Shown here piece after piece: positions 4,758 to 52,212 of a stretch of 64,000 nt of DNA. Each line of letters starts with the position of its first letter. The stretch's first letter is position 1. The DNA lies in contig NZ_CP045508.1 of NCBI RefSeq assembly GCF_013376475.1, forward strand, positions 2,888,001 through 2,952,000. The letters are read 5' to 3'. Below the pieces are notes generated by a model, which did no database searches, was not told the DNA's origin, and saw only the letters and a program-made list of their open reading frames with translations. The translations under genes and the position numbers were made by a program. The stretch is from Desulfolutivibrio sulfoxidireducens (GTDB taxonomy: Bacteria; Desulfobacterota; Desulfovibrionia; Desulfovibrionales; Desulfovibrionaceae).

Positions 4758-4996
4758 CGCATTCAACAAAAAAACCGAAATATATTCTTGAATACGGACA
4801 CTTCGTTGCATTCGCTTCCCTGACGTCCAACTCCACAGGGGGTTGTTCCGTGCCAGGCCAGGGCTCTTGCCGGGCGTCTTGCCGGCCTCCCGGATCGTTT
4901 CTTGCATTATTTTTGCGGACCGACTGAATTTTGGCAGGCCCCTGGCCGCCAAAATGCTTGCGCACGCGCGCCGCGCCGCCCCCCGGAGTTGCGCCT

Positions 4997-50523: not shown

Positions 50524-51489
50524 CTAGTAGAACCAGGTGCGGCAGCGCGGCCGGGGAATGGCCTTGTATGCCGGGCGCTGTCCCTTGTTCCAGAGCAGGA
50601 AATCCAACCGCAGGGGCGTGGCGCGCACCCCGCGCCTGCCGAGTTCCGCCGCGAGCAGTTCCACGACCCGCACCGTGGCCGCCCGCATCTCCACCTCCTG
50701 GGGCGAATCCTTCTCCAGCGGCTCTCCGGCAGCGATGCGTGCCTCTAACCCGGCTTCCAGCTTGAGGATGCCGTCCAGGCGCAGTACATGGGGCACGAGG
50801 TTGTCCGCGAACACCGTGAGATATTCCAGGTCGCGGAACCGGCCCGGCCCCTTCCCGCCAAAGGCCACGGCCAAATCCGCCGCCGTCAGTTGGGCGCGCT
50901 TGTAAAAGGCCGCCGGACCGGTGGCATACGGTTGTTCGTCGCGGAAAAGCTCCATCCGGGCAAGATCGCGGCACAGCGCCTCGGCGCTGCCGCCGGCCGC
51001 CTCGATGAGGGCAAGGGCGCTGCCACCATAATCGCGCCGCAACAACTCTCCCAGGTCGCGCAGGGCACGGGCGAAAAGCCCCATGAGTTCCATGACCACG
51101 GGATCATCTGCGTCCTGCCTGAAAAGCCGGGCCGCGTCCCCGGGCGTCATGACGGCAAGCGCGTCCGCGCCAAGGGGACCCTCGCCGGCGAAGTGTGCGG
51201 CAAGGCGTGTGGCGATGGTGAAATAGCCGGACTTGCCCGGGAGCTTGCGCAGGTGCGGGAAATAGCCCGAGCCGAAGTTCACGGCGTCGAGAACGAGGAA
51301 AAAATGCGCCGTGTCCACCCCGTGCCCCAGGTAATGGCTGGCCGGGTCGTGGGCCGGCGCGGCCAGGGCGGCGACGTCGCAACGAGCGGCATAGGCTGGA
51401 ATGGCCTCATGGTCGATGGTCACGAAGCGGGCGTCGCGGCAGACTCGGGCGGCGTCGGCGCGGATGCGCGCGAAAAGCGAAACAGACAT
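50524..51489 (-). CDS. Queuosine salvage protein family (DUF2419-like)
   Basis: 321 residues resembling the DUF2419/Qng1 family, which releases queuine from queuosine nucleoside or its monophosphate. Fitting features are AVNFGSGYFPHLRK, GYFTIATRLAAHF, a central FYKRAQLTAADLAVAF, and C-terminal RLDFLLWNKGQR... PRCRTWFY, close to the family's terminal Arg-aromatic signature. GGAG lies nine bases before the ATG. It diverges from a Nudix-type regulator gene across a shared palindrome. The assignment is from pattern recognition without a search. Confidence 0.75.
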   Translation of the reverse strand: MSVSLFARIRADAARVCRDARFVTIDHEAIPAYAARCDVAALAAPAHDPASHYLGHGVDTAHFFLVLDAVNFGSGYFPHLRKLPGKSGYFTIATRLAAHFAGEGPLGADALAVMTPGDAARLFRQDADDPVVMELMGLFARALRDLGELLRRDYGGSALALIEAAGGSAEALCRDLARMELFRDEQPYATGPAAFYKRAQLTAADLAVAFGGKGPGRFRDLEYLTVFADNLVPHVLRLDGILKLEAGLEARIAAGEPLEKDSPQEVEMRAATVRVVELLAAELGRRGVRATPLRLDFLLWNKGQRPAYKAIPRPRCRTWFY

Positions 51490-51514
51490 GGGAACTCCGT
51501 TGCGAAAAGCGTTT

Positions 51515-51562
51515 TTGACTTATTGTCATTAGTACAATAATATAAAAAAAAGAATACGTCAA
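51515..51562. promoter_or_regulatory. Back-to-back promoters overlapping one palindromic operator
   Basis: Plus strand: TTGACT (51515-51520) and TAATAT (51538-51543), 17-bp spacer. Minus strand: TTGACG (51557-51562) and TATTGT (51534-51539), 17-bp spacer. The palindrome TTATTGT-N7-ACAATAA (51520-51540) covers the plus spacer and the minus -10. A bound dimer would block both promoters. Confidence 0.65.
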
Positions 51563-51576
51563 TGGAGGGAGGTTGC

Positions 51577-52212
51577 GTGGCGTTTGACCGGGGCCGGGTG
51601 AGTCTTGCTGTGGATTGCGCGGTGTTCGGCTTTGCCGCGGGGGGGGTACGGGTGCTGACCGTCAGGCGGCGCGTGCCGCCTTTTGCCGACGGCTGGGCGC
51701 TGCCTGGCGGCTTTGTCGAGGCCGGGGAAACCTTGCTTTGCTCGGCGGCGCGGGAGCTTGAGGAGGAAACGGGCGTGGTCGCGGCGCATCTGGAACAGGT
51801 GGGCTGCTTCGACGCCCTGGACCGGGACCCGCGCGGCCGGGTGGTGTCCGTGGCCTTTGCCGGGCTTGTGCGGCGCGAGCACCTGACGCTCCGGGCCACG
51901 GCCGACGCTGGAGAGGCGCGCTGGGGGGACCTCGCCGACCGCCCCCCCCTGGTTTTCGACCATGAGGCCATACTGGCGGCGGCCCTGGCCCATGTGCGCG
52001 CCTCACTATGGCAACGCCCCCTTGCGCTTGCGCTTCTGGGCGCGCGCTTCACCCTGGCCGAGGCCCAGACGCTCTACGAGGCCGTGGCCGGCATGCGCTT
52101 CGATGTGCGCAATTTCCGCAAGCGGCTGCTTGCCACGGGCATGCTCGCGTCCCTCGATGCCAGGGAGACGGGCGTGGCCCACCGGGCTGCCCGGTATTAC
52201 GCCTGCCGCTAG
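51577..52212 (+). CDS. NrtR-type Nudix-winged-helix regulator
   Basis: 211 residues from GTG 51577, which has GGAGGGA six bases upstream; an ATG at 51562 would lack such a site. Residues about 5-130 are a Nudix domain: GGFVEAGETLLCSAARELEEETGV matches the full Nudix box GX5EX7REUXEEXGU. The C-terminal 75 residues (LGARFTLAEAQTLYEAVAGMRFDVRNFRKRLLATGMLA) are the winged helix seen in NrtR. NrtR proteins sense ADP-ribose or NAD-related metabolites. Here the divergent partner is queuosine salvage, so the ligand may differ. Confidence 0.85.
   Translation: MAFDRGRVSLAVDCAVFGFAAGGVRVLTVRRRVPPFADGWALPGGFVEAGETLLCSAARELEEETGVVAAHLEQVGCFDALDRDPRGRVVSVAFAGLVRREHLTLRATADAGEARWGDLADRPPLVFDHEAILAAALAHVRASLWQRPLALALLGARFTLAEAQTLYEAVAGMRFDVRNFRKRLLATGMLASLDARETGVAHRAARYYACR

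Follow-up and report, generated by a model that had tools for sequence, protein, structure and literature searches.

A divergent gene pair consisting of an NrtR-family regulator and a DUF2419/Qng1-type N-glycosidase was found in the DNA analysed here (the window; 64,000 nucleotides from Desulfolutivibrio sulfoxidireducens, contig NZ_CP045508.1, positions 2,888,001 to 2,952,000). The pair is likely to work as a two-gene cassette, in which an NrtR-family repressor would act on the DUF2419-type target from one shared operator and would be released by a ligand; the confidence placed in the operator itself, as judged from its sequence, is higher still. Control of the DUF2419-type gene together with the regulator gene is the best reading, since the cassette is conserved and each genome with the pair contains a single exact operator. 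It is a known regulator design acting on a new kind of target, and an NrtR-family switch on a DUF2419-type gene looks new, no description having been seen in the accessible portions of open-licence full texts. If this reading is right, the NrtR family also serves a nucleoside-salvage-type gene, and the ligand of the regulator would reveal what the sister subfamily of DUF2419 proteins acts on; with one operator and two genes the cassette is an easy handle, a DNA-releasing ligand pointing to the substrate of the subfamily.

Arrangement of the locus

The DUF2419/Qng1-type N-glycosidase gene (321 aa; PF10343, E 2.1e-48; sister subfamily, motif FADNLVPH) occupies positions 50524–51489 on the minus strand, and the NrtR-family regulator gene (211 aa from GTG; Pfam NUDIX and NrtR_WHD) positions 51577–52212 on the plus strand. 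The divergence of a DUF2419-like gene and a Nudix-winged-helix gene, as given in the preliminary description, was borne out by Pfam (Q_salvage, PF10343, to the left; NUDIX and NrtR_WHD to the right). For the regulator, GTG 51577, preceded by GGAGG, is the most likely start codon, rather than ATG 51562, which would give 216 aa: in the relatives this GTG is conserved together with its ribosome site, and ATG 51562 is out of frame (comparison with genomes G029 and G060, read by eye). The gap between the genes is 87 bp long and A+T-rich (G+C 0.37 vs 0.65 for the window). Pfam scanning of four neighbours of the pair gave glpX, a weak DsrE match, rpiB and transketolase; none of the four was a NAD gene.

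The palindrome TTATTGT-N7-ACAATAA described at 51520–51540 was recovered as an exact match (no strand assigned), and its arms are conserved in G029 and G060. Both opposed promoters with 17-bp spacers were likewise present (2 found vs 0.1 expected in shuffles): the promoter-like site of the DUF2419-type gene, TTGACG-N17-TATTGT, lies at 51534–51562 on the minus strand (−35 at 51562), and that of the regulator gene, TTGACT-N17-TAATAT, at 51515–51543 on the plus strand (−35 at 51515). The palindrome is placed as described, with the minus −10 within its right arm and the plus spacer covered. At up to 3 mismatches the window contained 2 matches to the palindrome vs 0.15 expected, one exact and the other with 3 mismatches; a perfect 7-N7-7 dyad arose in 0.4% of single-base shuffles of the 87-bp gap, and a perfect dyad with any spacer of 4–9 in 2.5%. 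A palindromic operator adjoining the regulator gene is a feature of the NrtR family, and the candidate operator found here has this position. Reading by eye in G029 and G060 gave a weak plus −10 (TAACAA/TAACAG) and a minus spacer of 18 before TATTGT; true conservation is therefore confined to the −35 hexamers and the arms of the palindrome. A riboswitch search of the window gave none and returned only one tRNA-Sec (Rfam), a selenocysteine tRNA gene at 2815–2904 on the minus strand.

Conservation of the pair in related genomes

PF10343 matches were obtained in 5 of 297 genomes sampled from the class, and the divergent pair in 3 of these 5, namely the genome of the window (G000) and G029 and G060, which belong to another genus and are near each other; the remaining two (G140, G177) encode distant DUF2419 proteins, with no regulator within the 3.6–3.7 kb fetched. 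Of 14 genomes from the genus of G029 and G060, the only two with a DUF2419 gene are also the two with the pair. The family sample of 247 genomes contained NrtR_WHD in three, one gene in each, and these are the ones that carry the DUF2419-type gene; the family sample overlaps with the class sample (297) without being identical to it. Protein identity of G029 and G060 to the window was 76–77% for the DUF2419-type protein and 80–82% for the regulator.

Twelve window genes were compared with 17–18 kb round the pair in G029 and G060, and only the two genes of the pair matched; none of the ten others was found there. DNA similarity to both genomes spans window positions 50524–52203 only, i.e., from one stop codon to just short of the other. 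Within the gap the palindrome arms were identical at 14/14 positions and the spacer at 3/7 in both comparisons, the minus −35 at 6/6 in both, and bases 51514–51519 at 6/6 (by subtraction), vs 21/54 (G029) and 23/54 (G060) for the remaining gap bases, or 39–43%. The conserved arms and −35 within a diverged gap constitute a sequence footprint, one that amounts to about one independent comparison, with three genomes of which G029 and G060 are mutually close. A clean empty site was not obtained in the same genus (G007 and G015, 3.5–3.7 kb fetched), where no similarity to the next window genes was seen past glpX. A link with rpiB–tkt–glpX (ribose phosphate) was considered and rejected, as those genes are not near the pair in G029 and G060; among other genes near the pair in these genomes one TetR-type gene was scanned. 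Riboswitches of the c-di-GMP-I type occur some kb from the cassette in G029 and G060 (L152, 16499–16585; L153, 17293–17380).

For a wider view, 80 of 191 relatives from the genome collection were kept as loci of the enzyme subfamily. The regulator was found near the subfamily enzyme in none of the 80 (tblastn; 56 with more than 1 kb on both sides, 42 with more than 3 kb), and an operator-like site (at least 12 of 14) within 300 bases upstream in none of the 77 with enough DNA. None of 30 DUF2419 loci fetched from the phylum (34 genomes with a match) had a regulator match, and none of 30 NrtR loci a DUF2419 match, half of the latter having only about 1.5 kb of flank. The cassette is, as far as seen, a lineage-specific arrangement, since NrtR was found at 0/80 of these subfamily loci and 0/30 of the phylum DUF2419 loci. 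Among the neighbours at the 80 subfamily loci, leaving aside frames that overlap the DUF2419-type gene or run antisense to it, the commonest, at 12 loci, was a gene identified by eye as YegS-type kinase-like.

The putative N-glycosidase and its subfamily

The DUF2419-type protein matched PF10343 with 165.8 bits (cut-off 25) and the PDB entries 7uk3 and 7u07 with E values of 7e-40 to 8e-40. A model predicted from 35 sequences (mean pLDDT 94.5) superimposed on the Sphaerobacter queuosine-salvage enzyme 7u07/7uk3 with TM 0.89–0.90 (36% identity; Foldseek E 6e-21) and on the Sphaerobacter entries overall, queuosine-bound ones included, with TM 0.87–0.90; the Pfam score above cut-off and the predicted Qng1 fold agree. 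K197, D229, D296 and W300 correspond to K199, D231, D298 and W302 of the Sphaerobacter enzyme and are all conserved; D298 and W302 are named as active-site residues (PMC11592518, extract), and K199 and D231 are altered in two deposited Sphaerobacter variants (PDB titles). These four residues are kept in at least 95% of both the subfamily and the canonical group.

The tree, built from 113 sequences, placed the window protein in a clade of 84 (support 0.956), 82 of them bearing the ADN motif and two of them variants; the 29 canonical sequences, which include the characterised Sphaerobacter enzyme, stood apart. Twelve positions differ between the groups at 85%, and at nine of them the window enzyme has the subfamily residue; N230, L231 and H234 beside D229 are such residues (canonical Y, K and Q), as is F77 (canonical W), while positions 119 and 226 have neither group's residue and position 272 the canonical one. 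The subfamily members were gathered partly by the FADN-type motif, and motif counts are biased accordingly. In the alignment the human chain reads FADYR at the motif. The window enzyme thus resembles the Qng1/DUF2419 queuosine-5'-monophosphate N-glycosidase (Sphaerobacter 7u07/7u91, human 7ugk) in fold and in the active-site K, D, D and W, and is unlike the Sphaerobacter and human proteins in its residues at the nine group-specific positions; by sequence, it belongs to a sister subfamily of DUF2419 with the Qng1 fold and active-site residues retained. The sister subfamily (L070–L149; ADN motif at 78 of the 80 loci), in which FADNLVPH and NFGSGYFPHL replace FADYKxPQ and NFCFW, occurs across many phyla, with records named Chloroflexi, Desulfobacterales, Acidobacteria and others. 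A search for plasmid spread of the enzyme gave no match.

The regulator and its pocket

The regulator has the architecture of the NrtR family, an N-terminal Nudix domain (NUDIX, E 6.3e-17, 62.3 bits, cut-off 21.1) and a C-terminal NrtR winged helix (NrtR_WHD, E 4.5e-17, 62.4 bits, cut-off 27). Among solved structures the best match was AraR (5bs6, E 8e-35); NrtR 3gz5 gave E 9e-20. The score against NF050029, the NCBIfam equivalog for ADP-ribose-responsive NrtR, was 112.8 bits, below the cut-off of 400. In the accessible parts of the literature, NrtR-family regulators are linked to the control of NAD and of pentoses, with additional effects on secretion systems in P. aeruginosa.

Residue numbers of the regulator follow the 216-aa form, aligned with BtAraR and SoNrtR. 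R36, R88 and H134 occupy the arabinose-binding positions of AraR (R34, R86, H131), and R91 the position of the ADP-ribose-contacting R98 of SoNrtR, which is Gly (G89) in AraR (roles from the accessible text of PMC4666351). According to the same text, F15 of SoNrtR (N8 column of AraR) stacks on adenine. This column holds Arg in 3/3 members of the window clade; of nine other homologues, five have Tyr (Leptospira, Leptolyngbya, L170, Prevotella, Miltoncostaea) and the remaining four Asn, Pro, Ala or His. These residues hint weakly at a changed base site in the pocket, the alignment being poor over the N-terminal arm and not including that arm of SoNrtR itself. The Nudix signature, impaired in NAD-type NrtR and in AraR (PMC4666351, part of the text), is complete in the window regulator and in G029 and G060, and an intact box is not peculiar to this clade, since the Leptospira, Leptolyngbya and Prevotella homologues are also complete.

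On these sequence grounds the pocket looks like a ribose or nucleotide pocket of the NrtR/AraR kind. With the NrtR proteins of NAD metabolism (Shewanella, Mycobacterium; Leptospira by gene context) the regulator shares the Nudix domain and NrtR winged helix, a local palindromic operator with an N7 spacer as in Mycobacterium, and a position adjoining its target; unlike them, it has a DUF2419-type target, Arg at the adenine-stacking column and the low NF050029 score. The AraR/XylR sugar repressors of Bacteroidetes, also of the NrtR family, have the same architecture, and equivalents of the arabinose hydrogen-bond residues are present here; AraR differs in G89, at the place of R91, and in its impaired Nudix box (PMC4666351, as far as accessible), and the gene sharing the operator here is of DUF2419 type rather than a recognised sugar gene. 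As to sugar-use genes, the window has rpiB and transketolase at a greater distance from the pair, and neither is near the pair in G029 and G060.

Other operator copies and the queuosine context

Six genomes were searched for the palindrome with up to 1 mismatch. The exact palindrome occurred once in each of the three pair genomes and in 0/3 relatives lacking the pair; G029 and G060 had one extra one-mismatch site each, mutually different, adjoining an RHS-type and a lytic transglycosylase-type gene. A wider regulon was rejected: at up to 3 mismatches G000 gave 54 sites vs 48 for the reversed control, and the degenerate sites are therefore without signal. The sole two-mismatch site listed in G000 lies within an open frame without Pfam match. 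The regulator seems, by sequence, to control only this promoter pair, given the single exact operator per genome. NAD-gene targets were absent among the scanned neighbours, and there was no second exact operator in the genome.

Each of the 6 genomes checked has queA whether it carries the pair or not, and the pair therefore marks no lack of this step of queuosine synthesis. A QPTR-type (queuosine-precursor-transporter-type) gene was found in 3/3 genomes of the window's genus and 0/3 of the other genus. In a search for further palindromes near queuosine genes, the fetched stretches round queA gave 0 matches at up to 3 mismatches, those round the QPTR-type gene also 0, and no wider queuosine regulon is therefore seen. 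Riboswitches at the queA and QPTR-type loci (L194, L198–L200) were likewise absent. Recycling of queuosine from tRNA turnover is possible; salvage of queuine in bacteria via Qng1 and QueK has been described (PMC11130926, extract). The statement that no regulator of this kind had been described agrees with the titles listed from the literature on queuosine with repressor or transcription-factor terms, among which none on such a regulator was found; in the accessible portions of the literature on queuosine and NrtR, NrtR is merely named among vitamin regulons.

Proposed mechanism and alternative readings

From the genes, the site with its conservation and uniqueness, and the linkage, all read directly from the genomes, the following mechanism may be put together, with the dimer, repression and ligand release inferred from the NrtR family. 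A homodimeric NrtR-family repressor, bound to the palindrome across the plus spacer and the −10 of the minus promoter, would keep both genes of the pair silent, its own included. Entry of a ribose-bearing nucleotide or sugar phosphate into the Nudix pocket would cause the winged helices to leave the DNA, as in BtAraR, where the ligand drives rotation of the winged helices (PMC4666351, partial text); the ligand-bound regulator would thereby free both genes. The enzyme would then split a nucleoside or nucleoside-5'-monophosphate, probably of queuosine type, into base and ribose (phosphate), and the regulator may also hydrolyse its own inducer, given the intact Nudix box. Against this mechanism stand the small number of genomes with the pair (three, two of them mutually close), the plus −10 that is not conserved in the relatives, the lack of NrtR matches at the 80 subfamily and 30 phylum loci, a competing dyad in Leptospira, the position of the Leptospira homologue by nadE and the presence of queA irrespective of the pair. 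The control of modified-base salvage suggested in the preliminary description was supported in part, for the NrtR-family regulator, the shared operator and the DUF2419-type target; its queuosine side is the weaker one, as the enzyme falls into the sister subfamily and the queuosine-related ligand is a candidate only.

Judged from sequence, the candidate ligands are ADP-ribose, a Q-type nucleotide, a ribose phosphate or others. It is possible, if doubtful, that the regulator keeps ADP-ribose as ligand and that a signal of NAD turnover raises the DUF2419-type enzyme. The nadE-linked Leptospira homologue (43–44% identity, also with an intact Nudix box) is in favour, as are the apparent sugar contacts R36, R88 and H134 with the ADP-ribose contact R91; the Arg at the adenine-stacking column in 3/3 members of the window clade speaks against ADP-ribose, with a contrast to other homologues that is only partial, and so do the 0/4 scanned neighbours that are NAD genes and the one exact operator per genome. 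A similar, tentative standing is given to an inducer that is the substrate or product of the enzyme, i.e., queuosine(-5'-phosphate) or ribose-5-phosphate released by the enzyme. The sole exact operator stands at the DUF2419-type gene, the pocket appears to have sugar and phosphate contacts and to lack the adenine-stacking aromatic, and AraR shows that the fold can switch to a free pentose (PMC4666351, accessible part); queuosine as substrate of the subfamily is, however, itself only putative. That the regulator is a dedicated sensor of a queuosine-type nucleotide, with a rebuilt adenine site, a catalytic Nudix box that destroys the inducer and control over an N-glycosidase of an undescribed DUF2419 subfamily, is rather unlikely; if true, no protein repressor of queuosine salvage known to us would precede it.

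Compatible with either ligand is the suggestion, again possible and short of probable, that the sister subfamily cleaves a non-queuosine nucleotide and that the switch serves that pathway. The separate clade of 84 (support 0.956) and the subfamily residues at 9/12 group-specific positions, three beside D229, plus F77, point away from the characterised enzyme; yet the four active-site residues are kept, TM is 0.87–0.90 to Sphaerobacter entries with queuosine-bound ones among them, positions 119 and 226 have neither group's residue, 272 is canonical, and the motif-based collection biases the subfamily counts. Chance neighbourhood, with a palindrome that is autoregulatory only and the DUF2419-type gene as a passenger, would fit a pairing confined to three genomes as far as seen, but is very improbable, as both genes and the minus −35 are kept in another genus, away from ten other window genes.

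Homologues of the regulator in other genomes

For ten homologues from other phyla, stretches of 160 bases (150 before to 10 after the start codon) were searched with the pattern TTAnTGT-N7-ACAnTAA and compared with shuffles that preserve single-base content only. The sites were as follows: Leptolyngbya, 12/12, and Streptomyces, 10/12 (0 of 1000 shuffles as good for each); Rhizobium, 10/12 (P 0.007); Leptospira, 10/12 (P 0.05); the other 6/10 had no close site of this pattern. Upstream of the Leptospira gene there is also a different perfect dyad (7/7, P 0.027), which competes with the 10/12 site. The NrtR site of M. smegmatis is GTTTTCGA-N7-TCGAAAAC (PMC6800001, extract); with the N7 spacing of the homologues and of this site, the spacing of the palindrome therefore fits the NrtR family.

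The neighbours of the NrtR homologues fetched vary: nadE, NAD genes, arabinose genes, an ADP-ribosylglycohydrolase, a nucleosidase and others without clear theme, besides three records that carried no annotation. Among homologues whose neighbours are informative, the nadE-linked Leptospira protein was the closest seen (43–44% identity over the full length). Its locus (Leptospira interrogans plasmid p1, NZ_CP043881.1, 4995–10636) runs from NrtR to nadE and on to a 2OG-Fe(II) oxygenase gene and one for a hypothetical protein; HNH and TIR-domain genes lie beyond these. On a Streptomyces sp. M54 plasmid (NZ_CP059899.1, 2971–4884) the NrtR gene stands immediately before a PNP_UDP_1 nucleosidase gene, with TTATTGT-N7-ACATATA upstream of NrtR; a small tree with long branches places this NrtR with the window regulator (support 0.94). 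Nucleosidase linkage of the Streptomyces type as a general rule was rejected, no such gene being found beside four annotated relatives.

On a Leptolyngbya sp. NIES-3755 plasmid (AP017309.1, 1981–5681) NrtR is divergent from a class II Argonaute and SIR2-type operon (PADLOC pAgo_II, Aga_SIR2), i.e., a regulator of the ADP-ribose-sensing family faces a defence operon of NAD-consuming type. In P. aeruginosa, an NrtR-controlled salvage pathway counters a NAD-depleting toxin, according to the accessible part of that work, and this was the only work on NrtR with Argonaute met in the literature as far as accessible, Argonaute being mentioned in its references. A perfect TTAGTGT-N7-ACACTAA lies at 4933–4953 of the Leptolyngbya plasmid locus, between the NrtR gene and the Argonaute operon.
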